Positions 3,608 to 46,444 are shown, counted from the first letter of the stretch. The stretch: 55,532 bases of DNA from a virus (IMGVR_UViG_3300045738_001117:1-55532); one strand, 5' to 3'. Notes: a model not told the origin generated them from the letters alone. Translations and numbers: made by a program.

Positions 3608-3645
3608 TATATAGTAATAAGGGCCCTATATAGTAATAAGGGCCC
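3608..3645. repeat. Tandem 19-bp repeat (two copies), candidate promoter or iteron
   Basis: TATATAGTAATAAGGGCCC occurs twice without a spacer. I noticed no other copy in the window. The sequence does not fit a clear sigma-70 promoter. Possible roles are promoters for a phage-encoded polymerase or iterons of a replication origin; the divergent position between the two gene blocks favours a control role. Confidence 0.6.
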
Positions 3646-22533: not shown

Positions 22534-25500
22534 ATGAGAAATTTAAGTAGGAGTGCTCCACTAACAGGTGGCGGCACAATATCAGGCGATTTAACTATAT
22601 CAGGTGACTTGTCGGTAGAAGGTGGAGGTTCTTTTACATATGATGAGATATTGACTGGTAATATGAATATAACTGGCGACCTTACTGTTTCTGGGGCAGA
22701 TTTAACTATTGTAGGTGCAACTTCAACAATTATAGCTGAGCAATCTGCTGGGGCTATAAGAGGAAATATTAAATTTATAACATCAGGTGGTGATGGTAGT
22801 ATTGCATTTGAAACAACAACTAATGGTGCTGGTGCAATAGCCGAAGCAATGAGGATTAATCACGATGGCAACGTCGGGATTGGAGCAACTCCAACAGTCG
22901 CTAAATTAGAAGTTCATGGTGGAACTCATAGTACCTCTTTATTAATAAAAGGTTCTGGTGGTGACACTGGTATAAAATTTGTAGATAGTGCTGGTAATAT
23001 AGATGGATATGTATATGCGTCTGGAGAAGATATAGGGCTTTTAGATATGGATGGTGATTGGGGGGTTAAAGTTGATAGTAATACTTCGGTAGATTTGCGT
23101 GTTGCTGGTTTAGTAAAAATGAAACTCGATGACAACTCCCGCATCTCGCTCTCGAATAATGATAGTGGAACTTCAAATACAATATTTGGAAAATTGGCTG
23201 GTGATGACTTGGCTGCTGGTGGTAATTATTCAGTCTTAATTGGAGAAAATGCTGGTCATACAAATAAATTAAGTGATAACAATATAGCTATCGGTTATGG
23301 TGCTATGGACTTGGCGTATATTGACGATACTGAAGATGCACTTGTCGCTGATAATATTTTTATTGGAAAAAATGCTGGTGGTGGAGATTGGGATTCTGCG
23401 GCTTCTCATTCAAATATAGCTATTGGTAGTGCTGCTCTTGCTGCGGCATTAGATGGGGCTTTAAATAATGTTGTTATCGGTAAGGAAGCGTCAGAGAGTC
23501 TAATTTCAGGTGATTATAATGTCGCAATAGGAAGTGCCTCTTTCAAGTCTTCACAAGGTGCAGATAAGTGTGTTTTTATTGGAGCGGATGCTGGTAAAGA
23601 CGGTAATGTTTCAAGTGATGGGCAAATAGGAATTGGGCATTCTGCATTGAAAAACCTCACATCTGGTGCTGGGAACGTGGCTGTGGGTTATCAAACTTTA
23701 GATGCCATTACTTCTGTTGGTTACTGCACAGCTATAGGACATCAAGCTCTATCTGCGGCTTGTGGAGCAGATAGCACTGCTGTTGGATACCAAGCATTAA
23801 TGGTTAATACTGCTGGAGATAATACGGCTATTGGTAAATCTGCTTTAGTTGATATGGTTGAAGGCTTTGACAATACTGCGGTAGGAAGCGGTGCAATGGG
23901 AGGAGCTTTAGATGCAACGGCAGATGCTTCAGAAGCAAATGTAGCTCTTGGTAAAAATGCTTTAGGAGGAGATTGGGTTACGGCTGTTTCAAACAACAAT
24001 ACTGCAATTGGTAGCTTTGCTATGGATGCCGCTATGGATGGGGCTGTGAATAACACTGCTGTTGGTCATAACTCATTAAGTGCATTAACTTCGGGCGACT
24101 CTAACACAGCTATCGGACATAATGCACTTCTTTCGTCTACTACAGCCATAGAGAATACAGCAATCGGGAATATAGCTGGTGATGCTTTAGTTGGTGGTGG
24201 TGGAAATACATTAGTGGGAGCAGGAACATTAACTACTTCAACGAGTGGTACTGATAATGTATGTATAGGGACAGATGCTGGAAGTGGTGCTGGAGATGTA
24301 GACGATACAGTAATTATTGGAAAAAGTGCCGCTGATGGAGCATTAACTTCTGACGCTGACGGTACAATTGCTATCGGAAAATCTGCTCTTGGAGCATTGA
24401 CATCTGGTGCAAAGAATGTCGCTATAGGCTATGATGCTCTTGGAGATTTAATTGAGGGAGACCATAATATAGCGATTGGTTATGATTCCATGAATGCTAT
24501 GGTAGGTGAAACTGGCGAAGGTAATGTTGGAAATAAAAATGTTGCTATAGGAACTGATGCAATGGGTTCTGTTAATGCGGGTGGACACGCAAGTTCTGCT
24601 TCAGATAGAAATATTGCAATCGGTTATGATGCTTTAAAGGGTGGGGCTTTGTCAGATGGTTCAGAAGGACATTTGGATGCCAATATTGCTATAGGAAATA
24701 ATGCCATGAACTCTACAGGTTCTAATTCTCAAACTGGTACAGTTGCTATCGGTGGTTCTGCACTCACAGCCCTCACATCTGGTGCTGGGAACGTGGCTAT
24801 AGGGTATACAGCAATGGATGAATTAACCACAGGAAATTATAATACAGCTTTGGGATATGCGGCACTTCATCAAATGGATTCTGGTGAGGAACACATGACT
24901 GCTGTTGGTTATCTGGCTGGTGATGCGGCTGATGGTAATACTACTTGTACGCTTATTGGTTCGCAAACAGACCCAAATACTACTGGTACGGACAATGAAA
25001 CAGTCATCGGATATAATGCAACTGGTGCTGGTGGTACTAACTCAGTAACACTTGGCAATGCTTCTGTTACCGCAGTGTATATGGCATCGGATAGTGGGGC
25101 TCATGTTTATGCTGGTGCTGGCACATTTGGTGGGAATACAAAAGTTACAACTTCAGATGCGGACACCACTTTTACGATAGAAACAACTTCAGGGTCAAGT
25201 ATCTTTCCAATTCTTGATTTTGTAAGTAGCCACTCCACTGTCGGTGCTAAAATTAGAAGCGATGGCGATGATGTTATAACTTTTGATAATTCACAAAATG
25301 TTGGGATTGGCGTATCACCGACTTATAGGTTAGATGTTCATGATGATACTACGGCTGGTGGCGGATATATGGCACGTTTTACCAATGATGGAGATAATGC
25401 AAATAGACTTGGTATTATCATTAAAGCTGGAGCTGACGATGCAAGTGGTACTACAAGGTATCTATTAGCACAGGATGGAGATGGGGGCACAGTTGGTTAT

Positions 25501-25905
25501 TTAGCTAATACATCTGGAACATTTGCATTAACGGATGGTTCTGATAGACGCATTAAAGACAATATACGAGATACTGAAATTGAAGGATTAAGTGCTGTCA
25601 ATTCAATGCAAGTCAGAGATTTTGAATGGAAGAAATCGGGAGATACTTGTATTGGCGGTCTTGTTGCACAGGAGTTAAAAGAAGTTTTCTCTCCAGCCGT
25701 AAGTGGCGAAGAGGATGATGTTGAAGAATATGAAGTTTCTCCATCAGTTGAAGCGTCAGAAGGCGTCGAAGCCGTTGATGCTGTAATGGGTGAAAGACCA
25801 AGGATGATGGGTGTGTCAAGAGATAGGCTTGTTCCAGTTTTGATAAAAGCAATACAAGAACTTTCAGCAAAAGTAGAAGCATTGAAAGAACAGTTAAAAG
25901 CATGA
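22534..25905 (+). CDS. Large tail fibre: YadA-like head repeats with S74 chaperone
   Basis: 1123 residues. Residues about 1-240 are a beta stalk. Residues about 248-835 contain some twenty 14- to 30-residue repeats of the YadA-head type, such as NIAIGYGAM, NVAIGSASF, NTAIGKSAL, NTALGYAAL, which fold as a trimeric left-handed beta-roll in bacterial adhesins. TNSVTLGNASV marks a neck. The C-terminus is an S74 chaperone with GSDRRIKDN (Ser1003/Lys1008) and a helical end. The fibre would be a trimer cut after folding, and binds the host surface. Confidence 0.88.
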   Translation: MRNLSRSAPLTGGGTISGDLTISGDLSVEGGGSFTYDEILTGNMNITGDLTVSGADLTIVGATSTIIAEQSAGAIRGNIKFITSGGDGSIAFETTTNGAGAIAEAMRINHDGNVGIGATPTVAKLEVHGGTHSTSLLIKGSGGDTGIKFVDSAGNIDGYVYASGEDIGLLDMDGDWGVKVDSNTSVDLRVAGLVKMKLDDNSRISLSNNDSGTSNTIFGKLAGDDLAAGGNYSVLIGENAGHTNKLSDNNIAIGYGAMDLAYIDDTEDALVADNIFIGKNAGGGDWDSAASHSNIAIGSAALAAALDGALNNVVIGKEASESLISGDYNVAIGSASFKSSQGADKCVFIGADAGKDGNVSSDGQIGIGHSALKNLTSGAGNVAVGYQTLDAITSVGYCTAIGHQALSAACGADSTAVGYQALMVNTAGDNTAIGKSALVDMVEGFDNTAVGSGAMGGALDATADASEANVALGKNALGGDWVTAVSNNNTAIGSFAMDAAMDGAVNNTAVGHNSLSALTSGDSNTAIGHNALLSSTTAIENTAIGNIAGDALVGGGGNTLVGAGTLTTSTSGTDNVCIGTDAGSGAGDVDDTVIIGKSAADGALTSDADGTIAIGKSALGALTSGAKNVAIGYDALGDLIEGDHNIAIGYDSMNAMVGETGEGNVGNKNVAIGTDAMGSVNAGGHASSASDRNIAIGYDALKGGALSDGSEGHLDANIAIGNNAMNSTGSNSQTGTVAIGGSALTALTSGAGNVAIGYTAMDELTTGNYNTALGYAALHQMDSGEEHMTAVGYLAGDAADGNTTCTLIGSQTDPNTTGTDNETVIGYNATGAGGTNSVTLGNASVTAVYMASDSGAHVYAGAGTFGGNTKVTTSDADTTFTIETTSGSSIFPILDFVSSHSTVGAKIRSDGDDVITFDNSQNVGIGVSPTYRLDVHDDTTAGGGYMARFTNDGDNANRLGIIIKAGADDASGTTRYLLAQDGDGGTVGYLANTSGTFALTDGSDRRIKDNIRDTEIEGLSAVNSMQVRDFEWKKSGDTCIGGLVAQELKEVFSPAVSGEEDDVEEYEVSPSVEASEGVEAVDAVMGERPRMMGVSRDRLVPVLIKAIQELSAKVEALKEQLKA

Positions 25906-34629: not shown

Positions 34630-37600
34630 ATGCCCTATTTAGATGACTATAAAACAGTCCCAGGATTAGCAGCTTATATTCGTAGAGGACAAGCAGTGCT
34701 AGCTGAAGAAGAAGGAATAACTCCTTTTCTTTTACATCCAAGATTACCAGACGAAGAAATTATAAGTACATACTTTTCAGCACATCCCGACCAGATTAAG
34801 AATCTTGATGAGAGAATAGGGAAAGAAGTATTTCCTCGAATATTCATGCTCCCAGGAGAAAGGTTGTATGAAGAGTATGGGCAAAAGTATGCGGCTGGAC
34901 TTTTTGAAGTATGGGGCAAGGGTTTAGCTGAGCATGCAGTTAATATGGTTGCCTATGTCCCAGGTCTCCTTGGTATTCATGGACCAAGGAAGTGGGCTCA
35001 AGAACAATCTAGGGAGTTGCACAGCTCTCCATCAATGCAGGCATACGCCGCATGGAGAGAAGACGAACCTGTGACATGGGATAATTTTATGCATATGGAT
35101 ATAGCCTTGAGGGGTCTTGGTGAAATGTTGCCATCAGTAACAATCATGGCTGCGTCATATTTTGGGGCTCTTGGTGCCTCTTCAAAAATAGCAGGACTTT
35201 CTGGTTTAAGTCCTCAAGCTGCCGCATTTACTACAATGGCTATTCTAGAAGGCTCTGGAGAATATATAGAAGCTATGGATATTCTGGTAAATGAGATGGG
35301 GATAGATGAAGATGAAGCATGGAAGACAGCTGCTCCCGCATCTATTGCGTATGGAATGGCAGCTGGTTATCTTGAGACAACCCCATTCTTCCACTTTTTA
35401 AAGAAATGGTCCCCTGATGCTGAGAAACATCTTCTTGGAGGATTGGTTAGGAAGTTTGTTAAAGGAAGATTTACACTTCCAATGTCTAGAAGAGCAGCTA
35501 GTGCAATAGATATGTCAATTCTTGAAGCTTCTACAGAATGGAGCCAAGGAACACTGCAAAATATAATTAACAAAGAAATACTTTTAGGTTATGCCACCTC
35601 AAATGAAGAAGCATTTACAAGGTTATGGCAAGAGTTTTCAGATGACCAGGAGATTTGGGAGCAAACATACGCTGGTGCGGTTGGTGGTCTTGCATTTGGT
35701 CTAATTGGTGGTGTTGGAGCTAAAAGAGGTGAGGCTCGTGCAAGAAGAAGGGCTCGAAGGGAAATAGTTGAAGAAGCAGCTGAAGCACCGATAGAGGTAC
35801 CACTACAAACTGGGGTTATCCAAACTGGTGAAAGAAAAGGCGAGAGTGTAGATATTGTTGGTGAGACTAAGAGTGGTAAATCATGGGTAATACAGTTTGC
35901 TGATGGCGGCGTAACAAATAAACTTAAAACAAGTGTCCTTATGGAAGAACCCACTGTTGCTGCAGCTGCTCCTGCTGCGGTAACCTCTAGAGAGTATTTA
36001 GAATCATTAATTATAGGAAGGCCACCTGTTATTATTGAAGAACCCCCTGCTGGTGAAGAGTACGATCTACAAAGACATATTAGAAGCACACAAGATTACA
36101 GTTCATTTGAAGAAAGACAATTAGACTTTTTTAAATATACCGAAGATACTAGCATCATAGATAGGTTAAGTGAAGAAGATAGAGATGTTTTATTAGGTAA
36201 TATAGGCAAATTCTTTGAAGAGCGTGAAGTAGTAAAGGGTGAGATAACTGATGAAAGAACAAGAAGTCTCATTGATATGTATGCAAAAGGAGATATATCT
36301 CTTAAAGAAAAAGCTGAAAGAATAACACCTGAAGAAGTTCTAATAGAAAAAGTAGTTACACCAACAACTGCAGAGGCTGAAACCTTCCTAGAACAAGCTA
36401 TGATGGAGTCTGAGATTGCGGCTCAAGTTGAAGCGGCTGGCTATACTCCTGGTAGTGAAGGGTTTGCTGAAGAACTAGCAACAAGAGTTGGGTCTGTTTC
36501 TGACGAAGAAGCAATACAAGATATATGGAGGGAGTCAGTTATAGCTGGTGTTGGTCAGCTCACTGGAGTACCCACTAAAACAGAATCTAAGGTTGAAGAT
36601 TTAAAAGTAGAATCTGTTTCTGATGAAGAAGTATCTAAGGCAGGGAAGGGATATAGTAAGGGTGATATAGTAAGAGTAAAACACGTAAAAGGCAAACCAA
36701 TTTCCAAATTATCTGGTAGAAATTATCAGATTGTATCCCGTGGAAATAACTCAGCTACTATTGCAGATATCCAGACAGGGAAATTACATCAGCATATTCC
36801 ATATGACTTAATATATAGGGTAAAAGCAGAAGCTCCTAGCGAGAAAAACATTAGTAAAATGTACGCAAATGACCTCAATAAGATATTAAATTCATCTGGA
36901 ATTGTTGAGAGTGCAGCAGAAGGAAGTGTAGAAAAAGAGATATATGAGTCTTTGCCTAAGACTGGAAAGGGTAAAGTATCATTTTCAGGGGCTGATAAGA
37001 AGATAGTTGCTAAAGCTGTCAGTGACTTTGTAAACAGACGCAAGCCTACAACCGAAGCACCACCATCTGAGGCATCAATAAGACAAAAAGAAGAGTTTAA
37101 TAAAAAAGTTCCCGCTATGTCAGTTGCTCGTTTAAAAGATATTTTAAAAGAACACGGAATTGAAAAGGCTGATAAATTAAATAAAGCACAATTAGTTAAA
37201 AAAGTACAAGCTCTCCCACCTGCTCCTACAGTCGAAGAAATATTTGATTTTGGTGAAGAAGCCCCAGCTGTTGCTCCTCCAGCAAAAGCAGTCACTGCAA
37301 AAGATGTACATGATGCAGCAATAAAAGCTAACTTGGAGCCCGATAGTAAAGAATTTATGGATATGTCTAAAGAAGTTGTTGATGAAAGACATATTGATAA
37401 TATGTCTAACGATCAAAGGAAACGGCTTATAGACTTTATTAAGCAAGAAGAAGCACCTGCAGTTGAAGCTCCTGCAGTAATACCTGATGATGTAACTAAG
37501 TCAGGTATTGAAATATACAAAAAGTTTATTACACAGCCTGATAAGATATATCAAAATTTTAAGTATATTATTTTGAATACTGGGAGGAAGTCATTTGGTT

Positions 37601-40600
37601 GGTTTTCTGCTTGGTACGGCCCTATAGATTACACATATACTGGAATAACTCATAAAACACAAGAGATGCCTAAAGAATTTTCTGATCTTGCAAGACAGAT
37701 TGAAGAAGCTACAGGAGTTGAAAGTGGATATTATAACAGTGCTTTAGTAAACCTTTTCCCTAAGGGTAAAGGTATAAGTGCACATGCTGATGATGAGAAC
37801 ATATTTGTTCGTGAAAATAATACTATTGGTAAGGTAGCTACTGTTAGTTTAGGTGGTTCGACTCAGATAACAATATCAGGTGCAACTGATGATGTAATTA
37901 CAGTAGACGCTGGTGATGTTTATGTAATGCCTGGTCAAGAATTTCAATTAAAGCATAAGCATGCAGTGGGTCCATCTAATCGGGAACGAATCAGTTTAAC
38001 ATTTAGACATATACCTAAGATTAGACTTGCAGTAGAGCCAGAGCCAGTTGAAGTAAAGAAGCCAGAAAGAACAAAGAGAGAAGAAAAAGGCGATGCTTTA
38101 ACTAAAGATGAAGTGGCTTCGATTGTTAATGATATTATTAAAAAGAAAGAAGGTGGTGAATACAGTGTAGAGATTGAAGTTGGCAAAGCTAAGAGATATA
38201 CAATAGAAGGCAATAGAAAATCGTATAAGAAAATAGTAAAACGCATTACTGACAAGATGCCATTTATAAAACCATTTGGAGAAAATTTTGAAACAGACAT
38301 TGTTGACAGAAGATTAGTCTTACATGACGAGAGTACTGGCACTGAATATATAATTAACTTGCCAGAAGCTGATCCTTCTACAGGAAAGAGGGTACTAGGA
38401 AGAGCATGGGGAACCTTAGTTGAATGGTCTAAAACTGGAAATCTTGATACTCCACCGCATGAGTTTTTCCATGTTTACTTTAATCTAAGAGAAGGCAGCC
38501 CAGAAAACAAACTGGCTGTAAAGATATTTGAAGCAGCTGCATATAAATGGACTAAGAATGTAAGAAAGATTAAGAAGGAGCTTACCCCACATGAAGCTGT
38601 TGGTGAGTATTTAGCTTATCATGTTGGTAAATACTATGTAGAGAGATTAACAGGTAGCCTTGCTAATAGAATAGGTTCATGGATAAAAGTATTCTGGTCA
38701 AAGTTAAAAGCTATGTTTGCAAAGTCTAAGCTTACATCACAAGACATATTTAATATTATAGCTAGTGGATTTTATTCAAAAAAGAAAGTAGAGCCGACTA
38801 GTAGCGAGCTTGATGACTTCAATATATCTACACACAAAGACAAAACAAATGCCGAATATGATGTAGAAGACGAAGATGGAAGTGAAGACGATTATAATGT
38901 GTGGGAAAGTTTAAGCGACCCTGATATTTCAAGCATAAAGAGATTAGAGCTGACTACTAGAACTATATTTGGCAAAAATCTGCTCAGTAAAGAGCTTGTA
39001 AATATACTTATGAAAGCAAGGGAAATTGAGGTGCGGAGAGACCCCACTAAGAGCTTTTCTGAAGCACATAATGAGTTTAGAGATTATGTTATTAATGCAA
39101 ACTTTGTTGATGAGTTAGATATAATAAGAAGGGAAGAGTTTTTAAAAGGTGCATCAGAAATAGCTGGTGAAGGTCGCAGTGTTATAGGTCTCAAGCGAAG
39201 AGATTTAAATAATTTACGGTTCTTGTATCAGTTTGCAAGCAGTACTATGCCAAGAGAAGGCAAAATAGAATTATGGGTTGAGAAAGACAGGCACGGAGGA
39301 ATAACATCTATTAAGAGACTCCCACCAGATATTGATCCTATCACTGGGAAGGCCCAGTCTAAGTTTGTAAACATGAGTTTCATAGACGATCTCCCTGGCA
39401 ACGTAGGTGCAAAGACTATTTTGTTGAAGTTCAGTAATATTGTTAGGGGTTTATGGTCATGGAAAGACAATGATGGTGTATCTCATACAAACTATATACC
39501 AGCCGCAGTTGAACAGACTGTAGATAGAAATGCGTTTCTTGATAAAAGACTTGGTGCAATGGACATAGCTCTAATAGGTCCCAAAGGACTTGATAAGTCA
39601 GCGTTTTTAATGACATTTGTTACTGAAGAAGACAAAAAAGAAGGCAAGAGCTTAGACGAATATCTAAGCAGAGAAGTTAATAGTAAAAATATATCAGTTG
39701 AAGATAAAGATGCATTTCTTGCTTATGCAAAAGAGAATGAAGAGTATAATCCGAATATAAATAGCCAGATAGTTGCCAAGCATAAATGGTGGAAAGCAGT
39801 CTTTGGAGATAAGTATCTTATTTGGCAAAGAGAAACTGTGACTACCACCGAAGATATGCTTAATAGAACAAGAATAGCACTGTCTGAGGGTATTATAGTA
39901 AGAGGTCTTGGGGAAGTTTCAACATTTATTGTTGACCCTGATAAAGTTAGAATTGAAATTCCAAGCAGAAAAGTAAAAGGTGAGATTAACAGTTATGAGT
40001 TAGGAGAGAAGTGGGATGGTGGAATGTATTGGTCTTCTGAACTCTCTTACAGGATTCAGGATAAATTAGGTAAGAAGCCGCTTAGAGGCGAGTTCAGTCT
40101 TTCAGAAGTTAAGCCTGCAATTTGGCATAAGACTGACAATGGTTTGTTAGCAATGAAAATGAACTGGTTCTTTCCAAGACCTGGGACACGACTGGTAGAT
40201 AAAGAAACTGGTGAGGAAGTTCTAAGAGTAATAGGCGAGCCTGGTGATATAAGAATTGTGCTTCCAGATGGTACTCTTGTAGATACGTTTGCAACAACAT
40301 TAGAAACTAAGAAGATGTGGGGAGACTTTGAGGGGAAGACTAATGAGGTTATTAATATACCTGAAAAGTCAATAAGGATTATCCAGACAACTGATCAAAA
40401 AGGAAAAGATACAGTGGCATTTCCATTTGGAGCTGTTGACTTAATGCTGTCTAATGATTTGCAAGCTGATAAAGAATTTGTTAAGGGATACGATGTAGCA
40501 ACAAAAGAGATGTTTAGAAGGGCAAATTCTGTAATCAGTCTACTGATAAACGGAAGAGCGCATCCTCAGAACTTTAAAAGACTGTTAGAAGATATCGGTA

Positions 40601-42744
40601 TTCTTAAAGATGTTGTTTCTACTATTGAAGAAGAAGCTCTCAAAGAGACACACGATTTTGCTATATTCCATCCACATTTTATGCAGAGGTTTGAGTCATC
40701 TATATTTAATTATGCGTTAAAGTCAGCTGCGTTTAGAGGAAGAGTAAAAGGCAAAGGAACATATATTGCACTTGCCCCAGACTTTGAAAACGAAATAGAT
40801 GATGGCGAGATAGGTTTTGGTGATAAGAATATGGAAGTCTTAAAGAATGCTCAGAAGAGAGTATTCACAGACGAAGAACACGAAGAATTTAGAATACTTC
40901 TAAGAGATAGAGCTACAAGGCCACAGGCAATGGAAATGCTTAGTGCAGCCCTTGAAAAGAATGATATTTATGTTATTAGGACTAGGAATCCTATTACAGA
41001 CATAGCAGCTTTTGGAATAAAAAAAGTAAGTGATATTGTTGCAGGTGCTGGAAATGTCGCAATGTTATCGAATAATGATGTTTTCGCTGTTATTCAAGGT
41101 GACTTTGATGGTGACCATCTATCTATTGATTTTATAACAGCTGAAGAAGCAAAGGCTTACTTAGCTATGCAAAACAGCAAAGCATATAAGGCAAGGCAGA
41201 AGCCAGTTGTAATGTCTTGGTTTGAACATCCTGCGGGAGTTGGGTTGCTGTCTGATCTAAATGCTGTACATGAAATTGGAGAAAGAGTATCTTTAGCACA
41301 GTATGCACAGGGCGTTATGACAAACTTAAAAGCTGTTCGTGAGGTATTGGCATACAAAAAGATATCTATTAAGGGTGAAGATGTAGCTGGTAAATCGGTG
41401 GTGTACTCAGTTGTCAATCCTTATGATGAAGTTATAATGGACTATGCTCCACTTGATGTTAGTAACAAGGACTTAAAGAAGAAAGAAAGACAGGCAATAT
41501 ACGATGAAATTATTGAGGCTAAAGGTCAAGTTGTAGATGTCAATGAAAACAATGTTAAGTTTGATGACATAAGCACAGAAAATAAATACTTTCTTAAGAC
41601 TAACTCAGCACATGAAGTTTCTATACTTACTCAGGCAGCTGTGGACAACCCTAAAGAGTTTCTATTATACCACTGGAAGTATAACGGCTATCCATTCCTA
41701 TGGAGTAGGGTGATTAAAAGAGATGATGGGCAAAGAATGGATATTAGTTTTCCTGAAACATCTGAAGTAGCTAATGATGATTATATTAGAGATGTGTGGC
41801 ACTGGATGGGTCAGGTATTTAAATATTCAGCAGCAAGGCGGGGAAGAGATAGAAAATTGAGACCACTGTTGCCAGAAGAAGTAGTTGGCTTTTCTGAAGA
41901 TATCATGGGCATGGCAGAAGCTTCGGAGGAAGAACTAAAAAACTACGTTGTTAAGAGAATGAAGGTGGCTGCTTGGCTGCAGAAAAAAAGCGATAAGGCA
42001 TTTGTGCATCAACTGCAAAATGACCACAAAGTGGACAAAATAAATATAAAGAACAATATTACTCCAACTGAAAAAATATTTGCAATGTATGCAGAGATTT
42101 ATGAAGAGACAATAGATGATGAAGCAACACCAACTGATGATGGTGTCGTTACAAGGATTCCAAAAGATTTAAGAGATCATGCTCATCATCTTGGTATCAG
42201 GCTGTTAACAAAGAACTTACCTAATGTCTTCAAAAAAGCTGGAGTTAAGATAGTATCAAGAGAAGAAAATATTAAAGCTGCTAAAGACGGAATTAAATGG
42301 GCTGACAGAGTTGGCTCGGACTTCTTAAATATATTTGCTGACCAACAATATAAGGATAAAAGAGGCAAGGTTCACAAAAAAGGAGCTGGTTTCTCATATA
42401 GGGCAAATTATTCAGACGCCCTGTCAGCGTTTATAGTAGATAATTTAGATAGTTTTAGAAATCTCTCAAAGCCTGCGCAAATGTATGCTTCTTGGTACTA
42501 TCTAAGGGGAATTTCTAAGGTTGATTATAGAGTAAAGTCGGCAGTAAAAACCATATCTAAGGTTGAAGCATTATTGCCTATGGAGCTAATGGACAAAGAT
42601 GTATTTATTGAGTATCTTGACAGTTGGGGGATGGCAGTTCAGGATGAAGATGCTGTTGCTAGTATCGTTGTAGAAAAAGAAATTGAGGACGAAGGCGTTA
42701 CAGTTGCAAGAGTCTTTAACAAAGTACAAGAGGAAATTTGTTAA
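34630..42744 (+). CDS. Giant polyvalent virion protein with RNA polymerase-like barrel, AlkB, zincin and SAP-like domains
   Basis: 2704 residues, 15 percent of the genome. Regions in order: about 95-370 hydrophobic stretches (AAFTTMAILE; GAVGGLAFGLIGGVGA), perhaps membrane-inserting; 676-731 an SH3-like patch (KGDIVRVKH); 830-860 a SAP-like helix pair; about 985-1127 an AlkB-type dioxygenase with His1052, Asp1054, His1111, Arg1120 and Arg1126; 1277-1281 HEFFH, a zincin motif; 1795-1846 DGG...S plus lysines, like the beta-type barrel of single-chain RNA polymerases; 2032-2165 a beta-prime-like double-psi barrel with GRVKGKG, Arg2119-x-Pro2121 and DFDGD (2158-2162), the magnesium-binding signature. 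I infer a virion-packaged transcriptase of the YonO/crAss type joined to protective domains. Injection with the DNA is likely but not shown. Confidence 0.75.
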   Translation: MPYLDDYKTVPGLAAYIRRGQAVLAEEEGITPFLLHPRLPDEEIISTYFSAHPDQIKNLDERIGKEVFPRIFMLPGERLYEEYGQKYAAGLFEVWGKGLAEHAVNMVAYVPGLLGIHGPRKWAQEQSRELHSSPSMQAYAAWREDEPVTWDNFMHMDIALRGLGEMLPSVTIMAASYFGALGASSKIAGLSGLSPQAAAFTTMAILEGSGEYIEAMDILVNEMGIDEDEAWKTAAPASIAYGMAAGYLETTPFFHFLKKWSPDAEKHLLGGLVRKFVKGRFTLPMSRRAASAIDMSILEASTEWSQGTLQNIINKEILLGYATSNEEAFTRLWQEFSDDQEIWEQTYAGAVGGLAFGLIGGVGAKRGEARARRRARREIVEEAAEAPIEVPLQTGVIQTGERKGESVDIVGETKSGKSWVIQFADGGVTNKLKTSVLMEEPTVAAAAPAAVTSREYLESLIIGRPPVIIEEPPAGEEYDLQRHIRSTQDYSSFEERQLDFFKYTEDTSIIDRLSEEDRDVLLGNIGKFFEEREVVKGEITDERTRSLIDMYAKGDISLKEKAERITPEEVLIEKVVTPTTAEAETFLEQAMMESEIAAQVEAAGYTPGSEGFAEELATRVGSVSDEEAIQDIWRESVIAGVGQLTGVPTKTESKVEDLKVESVSDEEVSKAGKGYSKGDIVRVKHVKGKPISKLSGRNYQIVSRGNNSATIADIQTGKLHQHIPYDLIYRVKAEAPSEKNISKMYANDLNKILNSSGIVESAAEGSVEKEIYESLPKTGKGKVSFSGADKKIVAKAVSDFVNRRKPTTEAPPSEASIRQKEEFNKKVPAMSVARLKDILKEHGIEKADKLNKAQLVKKVQALPPAPTVEEIFDFGEEAPAVAPPAKAVTAKDVHDAAIKANLEPDSKEFMDMSKEVVDERHIDNMSNDQRKRLIDFIKQEEAPAVEAPAVIPDDVTKSGIEIYKKFITQPDKIYQNFKYIILNTGRKSFGWFSAWYGPIDYTYTGITHKTQEMPKEFSDLARQIEEATGVESGYYNSALVNLFPKGKGISAHADDENIFVRENNTIGKVATVSLGGSTQITISGATDDVITVDAGDVYVMPGQEFQLKHKHAVGPSNRERISLTFRHIPKIRLAVEPEPVEVKKPERTKREEKGDALTKDEVASIVNDIIKKKEGGEYSVEIEVGKAKRYTIEGNRKSYKKIVKRITDKMPFIKPFGENFETDIVDRRLVLHDESTGTEYIINLPEADPSTGKRVLGRAWGTLVEWSKTGNLDTPPHEFFHVYFNLREGSPENKLAVKIFEAAAYKWTKNVRKIKKELTPHEAVGEYLAYHVGKYYVERLTGSLANRIGSWIKVFWSKLKAMFAKSKLTSQDIFNIIASGFYSKKKVEPTSSELDDFNISTHKDKTNAEYDVEDEDGSEDDYNVWESLSDPDISSIKRLELTTRTIFGKNLLSKELVNILMKAREIEVRRDPTKSFSEAHNEFRDYVINANFVDELDIIRREEFLKGASEIAGEGRSVIGLKRRDLNNLRFLYQFASSTMPREGKIELWVEKDRHGGITSIKRLPPDIDPITGKAQSKFVNMSFIDDLPGNVGAKTILLKFSNIVRGLWSWKDNDGVSHTNYIPAAVEQTVDRNAFLDKRLGAMDIALIGPKGLDKSAFLMTFVTEEDKKEGKSLDEYLSREVNSKNISVEDKDAFLAYAKENEEYNPNINSQIVAKHKWWKAVFGDKYLIWQRETVTTTEDMLNRTRIALSEGIIVRGLGEVSTFIVDPDKVRIEIPSRKVKGEINSYELGEKWDGGMYWSSELSYRIQDKLGKKPLRGEFSLSEVKPAIWHKTDNGLLAMKMNWFFPRPGTRLVDKETGEEVLRVIGEPGDIRIVLPDGTLVDTFATTLETKKMWGDFEGKTNEVINIPEKSIRIIQTTDQKGKDTVAFPFGAVDLMLSNDLQADKEFVKGYDVATKEMFRRANSVISLLINGRAHPQNFKRLLEDIGILKDVVSTIEEEALKETHDFAIFHPHFMQRFESSIFNYALKSAAFRGRVKGKGTYIALAPDFENEIDDGEIGFGDKNMEVLKNAQKRVFTDEEHEEFRILLRDRATRPQAMEMLSAALEKNDIYVIRTRNPITDIAAFGIKKVSDIVAGAGNVAMLSNNDVFAVIQGDFDGDHLSIDFITAEEAKAYLAMQNSKAYKARQKPVVMSWFEHPAGVGLLSDLNAVHEIGERVSLAQYAQGVMTNLKAVREVLAYKKISIKGEDVAGKSVVYSVVNPYDEVIMDYAPLDVSNKDLKKKERQAIYDEIIEAKGQVVDVNENNVKFDDISTENKYFLKTNSAHEVSILTQAAVDNPKEFLLYHWKYNGYPFLWSRVIKRDDGQRMDISFPETSEVANDDYIRDVWHWMGQVFKYSAARRGRDRKLRPLLPEEVVGFSEDIMGMAEASEEELKNYVVKRMKVAAWLQKKSDKAFVHQLQNDHKVDKINIKNNITPTEKIFAMYAEIYEETIDDEATPTDDGVVTRIPKDLRDHAHHLGIRLLTKNLPNVFKKAGVKIVSREENIKAAKDGIKWADRVGSDFLNIFADQQYKDKRGKVHKKGAGFSYRANYSDALSAFIVDNLDSFRNLSKPAQMYASWYYLRGISKVDYRVKSAVKTISKVEALLPMELMDKDVFIEYLDSWGMAVQDEDAVASIVVEKEIEDEGVTVARVFNKVQEEIC

Positions 42745-42745
42745 T

Positions 42746-45700
42746 ATGGCTAATATAAATTGCGAAGGCATAACAGCTGCAAGGCAAGCAAATAAAAAAC
42801 AGATAAGATACTACAGATCAAGAGTATCAGCAAAGATCGACCAGCTAATTGGGGCCCCAGCGCTTAGCCCAGCTATTAATTCTTTAAAGCCAAGAGATGC
42901 AAGCCTTGAGAGACAAAGATATAGAGCTCAAAAAAAGTTACACGACTATCTTGTGAGCACTCTCATGGAACTTGGTCAGATAAAAGGACACATTGTAGAA
43001 GATATCGATATTTTTGGTGACTTGTTACATATTCAATCGCATGAGAATAACGCAGCTCTGTATAATTTTTCAGAGACCCATTATGCAACTATTCTAGAGA
43101 GATTAGGCAAGACAAAACAGTGGTTGAGTAAAGTACCTGCTGAAAAACCTCTAACGCTATGGGAGCAGACGTTTGGAGAGATGTTGAGAATAATTCTTTC
43201 AAGAGACAAATTTGGAATTGCTGCAAAGTTCATGTTAAAGGTAAGAAGCTTTTCTGACAATAGCAGGTCTCTAGATATTGAATATATACGAACATTATCT
43301 ACAAAAGAGAAATCTATACACGATCTTATACGGGAAAAGGTTTCAAATAATATAAAAAACACAGATGATATTGGACACTTAATATTTGGTGGTCTTGAGG
43401 GATTTTTTACAAGAGACAAACGTGAAGTTGTTATTGTCGGAACCAGTATAGCCGATAATAGTTATTCTGTTTTTTATCTTGATAGCAATGGCAATAGAAT
43501 AGGCAAAACTCCAAAAGTTGTTAATAAATCAGAGATTTCTGTTATTGGTAAAAAAGATTTACCAGGCGAGAATAGGATAAGAAGTGCTATACAATTAGCT
43601 GCGCACAAATTCTATCGCAGGTTGCTAAATGGAAGAGTAAGGCATGTAGAGTTTGTGAGGACCCCCCATAATATTGAAGAAGAAGGGGATTTTAATGATG
43701 TGTGGAGGAAGTCACGTGATGGCATGTTTGTTGGCAGGGCTTTATCTGAAGCTGGAAAAGAAAAAGATACAAGAGAAAAACTAGGACTGCAGCCTGATGT
43801 TCATCCACAGCTACATACGGTTAAGTTTGGGGCGTGGGAGTTAACATATGTAATGGTGAAACAAGGTGAAGGGGTGCCAGGGCAAGATGAAGTATACAAA
43901 GCTTACTATACTAAAGCTAGAAGAGGTGACAAAGTAATAATGTTGTATAATCAAGGCGATGTTAAATTAACAGAATCAACAGCAAACCTCGGCCTTGGAA
44001 TTAGTAAAGAAATTCTATACAGAAAGGTGTTCTTAGAAGCAAACGATCATAAAATATTTCAAAAGCCGAGAGTTATTGGAGCAACTGTCGAAGGTGAGCC
44101 TATACTGTCGGAAGGTGGCAAGTTTCGTGCATACTATAATTTTTTTATAAATAAAGACTACGATAATATTCCTGAAGATATAGTTGATGAAATTCATGCT
44201 CAAATAACTGAGACGAGGGTTCTTAATAAGGATTTTTGGGAAAATCTTATAAAGAAAAGAATAGGGTATATGGAGCGTAGCATTAAAAAGGCGGTTGAAA
44301 GACCAGACGTAACAAGAGCTGAAGTGCTAGAGCTCGCTAGGAAAATAAGTGGTGTAGGAGGTGCAAGACACACAATAGATGTTCGTGGTGGTGAAGTAAC
44401 TATGTTAATGGGTGGACTGCAAAAACTAAAGCCAAAAAGGATAAACTTTGATCCTGTAAGATTTAAGGACGGTGTATATGAAGACACAGCAGACAGAGTA
44501 ATGGCTTCATACGAAAAAAAATTAATAAAGAACAACGAAAGCCTTGAAAAATGGGAAAGGGATTTGGCAAATAAAAAAGTTGCCGCAGATTTGTACAATA
44601 AGCATACTGCTGGAATACACAAAGAAAATGAGAGACTGGAAAATGATATTGAAGTATTAGAGAGAACTAGGGACATTATGCTTGATAAGGTAGTTGATGG
44701 CGAGGAAACTCCAGACCAAATGTCATATCTATTTAATCCTGTTCACTTGAGAACTACATCAGCAATGATGGACCATATGCAGAGGGAAGAGGATTTTGAA
44801 TCTCAAATAAAGTATTATGAAAGCACTGCAATGGCTCTAGTGATGGACGAGTTAAGAGCTGATTTGTTAGATGCTTTGATTGATATGAGAACTAATCCAT
44901 CTGTCCAAAATTTAATGATAGACTCAGTAAAAAAGGCGTTTGGTGATCCTACATACAGTGCTAAGTTTTTTGGGGCTGACATGGGATTTGAGAAACTAGC
45001 CAAGATTTTTAATAAACTTAATTTTGCTGGAAAAATGCGAGGAGAGGAAGACCCTTATCGTATATGGACGGCGGACAAAGTTCAGTTTTGGGGGATCATG
45101 CAAAATATGGGCTGGACTGCAAAGCACCTTGGTAAGTTCACCGCAACACAAAATAATTTACAGATACTTAACCCAATTATACTGCATGGATTGGGTACTT
45201 ATCGAACTGCAAAGGGGTTGCTTGACAATGATGTATGGAAAAAAAGAGTTGAAGATACTGGTGTCCTTGTTCTTCTAAATGCTCTTAATGAAATATTGCT
45301 GGGCAGGCGGGAAGGCGACCCGACGCTGAGAGACTATCCGCTTATAAAATATTCTAAAGCGGCAGCTACAATGGCGATGACAAAGAAAGCGTTTATGAAC
45401 ACACCTGACAAGGCAATTGATACGGTAATCATGAGGTCTGCTGCTCTTGGTGATTCAGCCGAAGAAGCACGCAGGCTAAAACAGTTGAAGAAAATATACT
45501 GGGAACTGGTAAATGGTGAGGATTTAGAAGGAAAGAACAAGTCACAGCAAATTCAAATTACTATGGCTAGACTTCAGAAACTTAAAAAGAAATGGTCTAA
45601 AAGGCATATGAGAGAAGCCGCAATGTTTACTTTATCGTGGTTCCCCTTTACTGGCGGCAAGGGGTTTTTCACATTTACAGGTGTTGAAGAAAGGCTAAGA

Positions 45701-46444
45701 GCAACTACTGCAATTATGGAGATGCTTGTAGCGAGAGACACAATGCTGGTTCCTATTGACGATGAAGCTGAATTTTATCGCCACCCGCTCGTTATCCAAA
45801 AGGCTAGATTTGGAGTATATTTAACTCAATTTGGGATGAGCCAGCAATATCTTGCTGGTTTTTTTGGTGGTTTTGGAAAATCTTTTGGACAATTTAAAAC
45901 ATATCCATACTTTGAAACACTGCAAGAGTTTAGATTAATGGAGAATTTCTTTAACTCTTTTGATGGTCAGTCTGCTATGGAAAACGTAGAAACACTTACA
46001 CGAAGAATAGGAGATGCAGCCTATGCAAGTTTTAAAAAGGAAAGTAGAAGTTCCAGCCAAAAAAAGCAAGATATACATTTGATGAGAATGTTTAGGCTTA
46101 TGATGATAAGAGGTGTAGCATCTTTCCTCTCTACTCTCCTTACTTTCAACCCGTATGCATGGGACCTGGTTAAGTCTATAAAGGGAATTGCATACGGAGG
46201 GAGCTGGAGTTTATTTTCATCTGCTTATTTTAGGGGAGCCGAGAGTCCAGCTCTTTCAATTTTAATAAGACTAATGATGCTTCCATTAATAATTGGTGCT
46301 GGTGACGATGACAAAGAAGAAAGAATACTAAGGGATTATTGGCGGCTCTTGCTTCCACCGCTAGTCACGTTCACGTGGGAAATTATTAATAAGATTAAAA
46401 AAGGTGAATCACCTGCCAGAGAGATTGTTGGTAATCCTTTCTAA
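42746..46444 (+). CDS. Large ejection-type virion protein
   Basis: 1232 residues from ATG 42746; GAGGAAA precedes it, and an upstream in-frame start would overlap the giant gene. The N-terminal half is charged and helical. The C-terminal 250 residues have hydrophobic helices (GVASFLSTLLTFNPYAW; ILIRLMMLPLIIGAG; LLLPPLVTFTWEII) similar to the ends of polyvalent phage proteins. Probably packaged beside the giant protein and able to contact the host membrane. Its last 36 bases overlap a small gene on the other strand. Confidence 0.6.
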   Translation: MANINCEGITAARQANKKQIRYYRSRVSAKIDQLIGAPALSPAINSLKPRDASLERQRYRAQKKLHDYLVSTLMELGQIKGHIVEDIDIFGDLLHIQSHENNAALYNFSETHYATILERLGKTKQWLSKVPAEKPLTLWEQTFGEMLRIILSRDKFGIAAKFMLKVRSFSDNSRSLDIEYIRTLSTKEKSIHDLIREKVSNNIKNTDDIGHLIFGGLEGFFTRDKREVVIVGTSIADNSYSVFYLDSNGNRIGKTPKVVNKSEISVIGKKDLPGENRIRSAIQLAAHKFYRRLLNGRVRHVEFVRTPHNIEEEGDFNDVWRKSRDGMFVGRALSEAGKEKDTREKLGLQPDVHPQLHTVKFGAWELTYVMVKQGEGVPGQDEVYKAYYTKARRGDKVIMLYNQGDVKLTESTANLGLGISKEILYRKVFLEANDHKIFQKPRVIGATVEGEPILSEGGKFRAYYNFFINKDYDNIPEDIVDEIHAQITETRVLNKDFWENLIKKRIGYMERSIKKAVERPDVTRAEVLELARKISGVGGARHTIDVRGGEVTMLMGGLQKLKPKRINFDPVRFKDGVYEDTADRVMASYEKKLIKNNESLEKWERDLANKKVAADLYNKHTAGIHKENERLENDIEVLERTRDIMLDKVVDGEETPDQMSYLFNPVHLRTTSAMMDHMQREEDFESQIKYYESTAMALVMDELRADLLDALIDMRTNPSVQNLMIDSVKKAFGDPTYSAKFFGADMGFEKLAKIFNKLNFAGKMRGEEDPYRIWTADKVQFWGIMQNMGWTAKHLGKFTATQNNLQILNPIILHGLGTYRTAKGLLDNDVWKKRVEDTGVLVLLNALNEILLGRREGDPTLRDYPLIKYSKAAATMAMTKKAFMNTPDKAIDTVIMRSAALGDSAEEARRLKQLKKIYWELVNGEDLEGKNKSQQIQITMARLQKLKKKWSKRHMREAAMFTLSWFPFTGGKGFFTFTGVEERLRATTAIMEMLVARDTMLVPIDDEAEFYRHPLVIQKARFGVYLTQFGMSQQYLAGFFGGFGKSFGQFKTYPYFETLQEFRLMENFFNSFDGQSAMENVETLTRRIGDAAYASFKKESRSSSQKKQDIHLMRMFRLMMIRGVASFLSTLLTFNPYAWDLVKSIKGIAYGGSWSLFSSAYFRGAESPALSILIRLMMLPLIIGAGDDDKEERILRDYWRLLLPPLVTFTWEIINKIKKGESPAREIVGNPF

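Follow-up and report, generated by a model that had tools for sequence, protein, structure and literature searches.

RNA polymerases of the two-barrel type rank among the most ancient enzymes, and their one-chain versions in phages are few and too diverged for detection by sequence. In phage phi14:2 the polymerase gp077 (KC821624; structure 6VR4) is a single chain with two barrels in which R-I-P stands 39 residues before the triad motif D1361FDID, and after its gene comes another large structural gene, gp076 (1421 aa), the products of both being recorded as structural by MS/MS. Phage P23-45 provides the precedent for a giant virion protein that incorporates an RNA polymerase (RNAP) module: in gp96, the tape measure protein of this long-tailed phage, the module lies N-terminally and has no clamp; beside it, the same phage also has a non-virion two-barrel RNAP, gp64 (PMC10770324). 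The eukaryotic RNAi polymerases, QDE-1 among them, likewise hold both barrels in one chain, with DPBB1 and its invariant lysine preceding DPBB2 and its three aspartates (PMC1750930), but QDE-1 is a cellular RNA-silencing enzyme without a polyvalent fusion. YonO is a free protein of ~100 kDa (PMC5467207) and is set apart from the protein studied here by that description. Bacterial beta-prime contributes one barrel of a multisubunit enzyme; the protein studied here follows its motif order with G-R...YxALxP, R-x-P and DFDGD. The virion RNAP of N4 belongs to the T7-like single-subunit family. N4-like RNAP modules invariably come as fusions with a zincin, in polyvalent proteins that are giant and ejected, have exchangeable accessory domains and are encoded beside virion genes (PMC5512222).

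The window analysed here is a viral contig of 55,532 bases that encodes a DnaB helicase, a D12 methyltransferase, a terminase, a P22-type portal and an SU10-type capsid protein, and it appears to come from an uncultured short-tailed phage. A sequence-only reading had proposed that a 2704-residue protein of this phage contains a beta-prime-like barrel and had guessed at a crAss-type resemblance. By its predicted fold, the protein is an unannotated, database-invisible form of the already known phage single-chain virion two-barrel RNAPs.

The giant gene and its setting

The giant gene sits within the plus-strand structural block, between structural genes and the early block, and its product carries two further regions upstream of the polymerase:

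34630..42744, plus strand: giant polyvalent protein holding the predicted polymerase, 2704 aa (ORF; gene position common to relatives)
37621..38007, plus strand: AlkB-like 2OG-Fe(II) oxygenase domain, residues 998-1126 (Pfam PF13532, E 4.4e-12)
38458..38472, plus strand: HEFFH (HExxH) motif, residues 1277-1281 (motif and context)
42746..46444, plus strand: downstream partner of ~1232 aa with one hydrophobic segment near its C-terminus (conserved order, hydrophobicity)

All complete relatives seen keep the order of a polymerase gene followed by a same-strand gene of about 890-1310 aa, as phi14:2 does with its giant protein gene and second large structural gene; by this analogy the product of 42746..46444 is probably a second ejected protein. 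The window phage differs from phi14:2 in its SU10-type capsid protein and P22-type portal, and in placing the polymerase core in the C-terminal third of the chain, behind the AlkB and HExxH regions.

The HEFFH region is probably a zincin metallopeptidase domain, an assignment drawn from the HExxH motif and its context because no profile matched. The motif precedes the predicted catalytic triad by 881 residues in the window protein; 11 of the 20 family proteins have it at a distance of 865-1027 residues, and several of the others are truncated. Repair or modification of incoming nucleic acid, DNA or RNA, is a possible role of the AlkB-like domain; among three relatives scanned with Pfam none has a match to it, and two have other N-terminal modules. 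One relative's giant protein (L010:4082-12640, minus strand) starts with a RecD/UvrD-type helicase, cpYpsA and a NADAR-like segment (recognized by eye), followed by the polymerase core, and in another (L118:3-7592, plus strand) the polymerase is preceded by a GHKL ATPase domain (PF13589) and by a Rho_N-like stretch. Judged from these sequences, N-terminal enzyme modules seem to be exchanged among relatives, helicase plus YpsA in the former and GHKL ATPase in the latter.

With an AlkB-like domain, an HExxH motif (the zincin being read from the motif) and a polymerase in one chain, the giant protein has, by analogy, the layout of polyvalent ejected proteins. In its RNAP–zincin fusion, exchangeable accessory domains and position beside virion genes it resembles the N4-like virion RNAPs, but its polymerase belongs to the unrelated two-barrel superfamily. 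Because the two folds are unrelated, the shared giant architecture looks convergent.

Elsewhere in the window, if the genome is circularly permuted, the minus-strand blocks at the contig ends (1-3902 and 46498-55532) may belong to a single early region; the contig showed no terminal direct repeat. A plus-strand gene at 22534-25905 encodes a protein of 1123 aa that has many degenerate repeats of the NxAIGxxAL type, ends in a chaperone-like C-terminal part and looks like a repeat-built fibre.

Predicted core and its invariant residues

The evidence for a polymerase combines a structure prediction with an alignment of 20 sequences (the window protein and 19 homologues) over residues 1600-2490. 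The features concerned, all on the plus strand, are:

39427..42099, plus strand: predicted single-chain two-barrel RNA polymerase core, residues 1600-2490 (AF2 model, Foldseek)
40108..40389, plus strand: probable first barrel (DPBB-B, beta-like), residues ~1827-1920, with K1828, K1843 and K1894 (model strands; Lys 20/20)
40765..41136, plus strand: predicted second barrel (DPBB-A, beta-prime-like), residues ~2046-2169, six strands (AF2 model)
40984..40992, plus strand: R2119-N-P2121, corresponding to the RAP motif of beta-prime (both R and P kept in 20/20)
41101..41115, plus strand: D2158-F-D-G-D2162, predicted Mg2+-binding catalytic triad (D, D, G and D invariant, 20/20)
41302..41364, plus strand: conserved helices G2228...N2232...K2243, 3' of the triad (G and N 20/20; K 19/20)
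41611..41658, plus strand: HExxILxQAAVDNxKE segment, residues 2328-2343 (V2338 and D2339 19/19)

An AF2 model of this core, built from the 20 sequences without templates, reached a pLDDT of 80.9 and a pTM of 0.84. An earlier model from 5 sequences was poor (pLDDT 45.4), and its Foldseek matches, already beta-prime, were given no weight. For the later model, the best 50 Foldseek matches in the PDB are all two-barrel polymerases with no other fold among them. The best is the crAss-type virion RNAP of phi14:2 (6VR4; E 2.7e-7, probability 1.00), which bears out the resemblance guessed at earlier; QDE-1 comes second (E 4.7e-7), followed by many bacterial beta-prime chains. Aligned to the single chain of 6VR4, the 891-residue model spans 966 columns (gaps included) with a TM-score of 0.42 by query length; since such scores to known structures are modest, we claim no detailed superposition. 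Closer structural homologues are found in BFVD, where the best match, A0A516M7V2 (E 8e-40, TM 0.78), belongs to a set of unnamed proteins and the matches also include crAss-like large proteins and phi14:2 itself.

Within the model, the six strands of DPBB-A (model residues 447-450, 461-465, 515-520, 530-538, 544-546 and 564-570; protein numbering is +1599) carry R2119-x-P, and D2158FDGD lies in the loop before the last strand, a predicted layout that is that of the beta-prime barrel. Upstream of the triad, a beta-rich block holds the three lysines that are invariant in all 20 sequences, and from its strand order it is probably the beta-like barrel. Two-barrel enzymes use two lysines in the second barrel, as QDE-1 does with K743 and K767 (PMC1750930; see also PMC6355029); we take the ~1827-1920 block, which comes first along the chain, as the probable second barrel of the pair.

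The motifs named in the sequence-only reading all stand in the ORF at the residues given for them: FRGRVKGKGTYIALAP at residues 2035-2050, R2119 and P2121 supplied by RTRNP, and D2158, D2160 and D2162 held by GDFDGDH. The 39 residues it had counted from R2119 to D2158 were recovered as well and equal the spacing in both phi14:2 and P23-45 gp96 (R740-N-P to D779FDGD); counted on the sequences, the spacing in P23-45 gp64 is 38, and it falls between 38 and 40 in all 20 aligned sequences. The triad itself is exactly DFDGD in gp96, as in the window, whereas phi14:2 has DFDID where the homologues have DxDGD. Sixteen positions are invariant in the alignment, D1796, G1797, G1814, K1828, K1843, K1894, G1898 and L2108 in its upstream part and R2119, P2121, D2158, D2160, G2161, D2162, G2228 and N2232 in the rest, and the residue between the first two aspartates (Phe2159 in the window) varies among F, H, W, S and N. 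Invariant aspartates and R-x-P around a variable second residue are, at the level of sequence, what a catalytic metal site would be expected to show. We regard the conservation of R, P and the three aspartates in 20 of 20 sequences, the homologues being 19-34% identical to the window protein, as the decisive sequence test of whether the motif is real. By position, the G2228...N2232...K2243 helices would correspond to the bridge-helix or flap region, and the HExxILxQAAVDNxKE segment is probably the counterpart of the conserved helix after the active site.

The proposed beta-prime-like barrel is supported by the Foldseek fold, by the invariance of the Asp triad and R-x-P, and by a spacing shared with two phage virion RNAPs. 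The earlier reading had called for a structure prediction and had named an unrelated fold, or loss of the aspartates in close homologues, as what would count against it; modelling of residues 1600-2490 instead gave PDB neighbours that are all two-barrel polymerases and fill the top 50, and the three aspartates are kept in 20 of 20. The evidence goes beyond that claim in that the model predicts an entire core in one chain, some 890 residues long, including the beta-rich region with its three invariant lysines. A multisubunit beta-prime identity does not fit the model, both predicted barrels lying in one chain and the only DxDxD with a preceding R-x-P among window ORFs of at least 80 aa being that of the 2704-aa protein. 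A T7-like single-subunit fold does not fit either, as the top 50 are two-barrel enzymes and profile searches gave no T7-type RNAP match.

A family beyond the reach of sequence searches

Searches of Pfam, PHROGs and PDB sequences gave no match to the polymerase region, single-sequence searches found no relatives in viral contigs or (by tblastn) in named phages, the prokaryote genomes searched gave no relative, and a profile against PDB sequences matched no RNAP. The homologues were first reached by a DNA pattern scan for GDFDGDH in viral contigs and extended by alignment-based scans and whole-record searches, which yielded the 19 sequences in other viral contigs. Against gp64, gp077 and gp96, a motif profile gave E values of ~0.6-5, which are not significant, with the gp64 and gp077 alignments falling on the triad; the full profile likewise placed its best stretches in gp077 and gp96 on the triad, with scores below zero. 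As profiles provide no significant link to these three proteins, the link is structural and motif-based. The authors of the P23-45 study likewise report no sequence-profile link for most families of the superfamily (PMC10770324).

The family extends beyond the aligned set. Related terminases turned up in at least 582 contig stretches, and the long records among them that we examined have a giant gene at the same place, some within the aligned family. Triad variants occur at the same site elsewhere: QRDHDGDH (G005), GDYDADK (G019, G015 and further loci), ADFDLDK (G023) and GDFDVD (G020). The 20-sequence profile (A7) matches two DYDADK sister giant proteins (E 3.4e-7 and 3.6e-7) only over the stretch from R-x-P to the triad, and hhalign of the two subfamilies gave a low probability (9.9), yet aligned them at the motif. 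Unannotated sister giant proteins with an invariant RRNPRTRPND...EGDYDADK (L127:6068-14722 and L137:6490-15156, both plus strand, and L146-L173), about 30-75% identical to the query, probably form a second virion RNAP subfamily. In all, about 50 family members were seen, in two or more subfamilies. A different protein on a 107-kb contig (P0008; L002:3-2594, minus strand) has RSPxxDPGS...GDFDGDHFF and resembles the RdRP/QDE-1 motif layout; it probably represents another two-barrel, RdRP-like polymerase family and was left out of the family analysis.

A candidate virion polymerase and the alternatives

The fold, the invariant catalytic motifs, the one-chain architecture and the conserved gene order are supported by our results. 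We consider it very likely that residues ~1600-2490 form a single-chain two-barrel DNA-dependent RNAP within a giant protein that is packed, ejected and used to transcribe the first-entering genes. The virion role is favored because the gene order matches that of phi14:2, whose counterparts are recorded virion proteins, and packaging and ejection are the most likely fate of the giant protein by analogy of gene order and architecture. For the polymerase we infer RNA synthesis, a DNA template, packaging, timing, proteolytic release and promoter choice along the following lines. The giant protein would travel in the head of this short-tailed phage and enter the cell along with the DNA; there, the upstream HExxH protease domain might release the polymerase module; and this module would then transcribe the first-entering genes, probably the opposite-strand replication/recombination block at ~46.5-55.5 kb, allowing early transcription by a phage polymerase without host RNA polymerase. 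Upstream of the minus-strand genes we found no shared promoter-like motif, the shared words being only Shine-Dalgarno-like, and the minus-strand block has no more sigma-70-like sites than shuffled sequence (30 vs 37.5). An intergenic gap of that block holds a perfect tandem pair of the 19-mer TATATAGTAATAAGGGCCC (3608-3645), unique to the window and absent from seven related records, which is possibly an operator or promoter.

A true two-barrel RNAP could also be made late, together with the structural genes, and serve middle or late transcription in the infected cell. The location of the gene within the plus-strand structural block would suit such a role, for which gp64 of P23-45 offers a non-virion parallel, but the size of the protein, its HExxH motif, variable N-terminal modules and downstream partner gene are traits of ejected polyvalent proteins, and the phi14:2 counterpart in the same gene order is a structural protein; we therefore hold this reading to be improbable. 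Still less probable is a two-barrel polymerase of other specificity, such as a DNA polymerase, primase or RNA-templated enzyme with a part in genome entry or in replication. The fold also makes DNA, as in PolD (PMC6355029), and no DNA polymerase gene was recognized among the window ORFs scanned; against this, the 50 best fold matches are RNA polymerases, headed by phi14:2 and QDE-1 and without PolD, and the gene lies in the structural block rather than with DnaB and the recombination genes.

That DFDGD sits by chance on a loop of an unrelated fold is scarcely credible and is already contradicted by the confident model with its exclusively two-barrel PDB neighbors. DxDGD alone does arise in 4.7% of 20,000 shuffles of the 2704-aa protein, and no sequence family is recognized, but the combination with R-x-P 38-40 residues earlier arises in 0.025% of the same number of shuffles, triad and R-x-P are invariant in 20 diverged homologues, and their spacing is that of described RNAPs.

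The virion RNAP favored here adds to the superfamily a family that Pfam, PHROGs and PDB sequence searches do not see, in phages with head genes unlike those of crAss phages and P23-45, and its ~890-residue core is bounded well enough for expression and assay. With somewhat more confidence than doubt, we propose that a common, unrecognized clade of short-tailed phages, as counted by those terminase stretches, starts infection independently of the host enzyme with its own two-barrel RNAP, carried inside a giant protease-containing polyvalent protein, and that the graded triad series DFDGD, DHDGD, DWDGD, DYDADK, DFDLDK and DFDVD bridges beta-prime-like and crAss-like forms. These observations suggest that the packing of a polymerase for entry has a wider origin or distribution than has been recognized. 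They also suggest that the same giant architecture of a protease plus accessory domains may have been reached from two unrelated folds, the N4 type and the two-barrel type.
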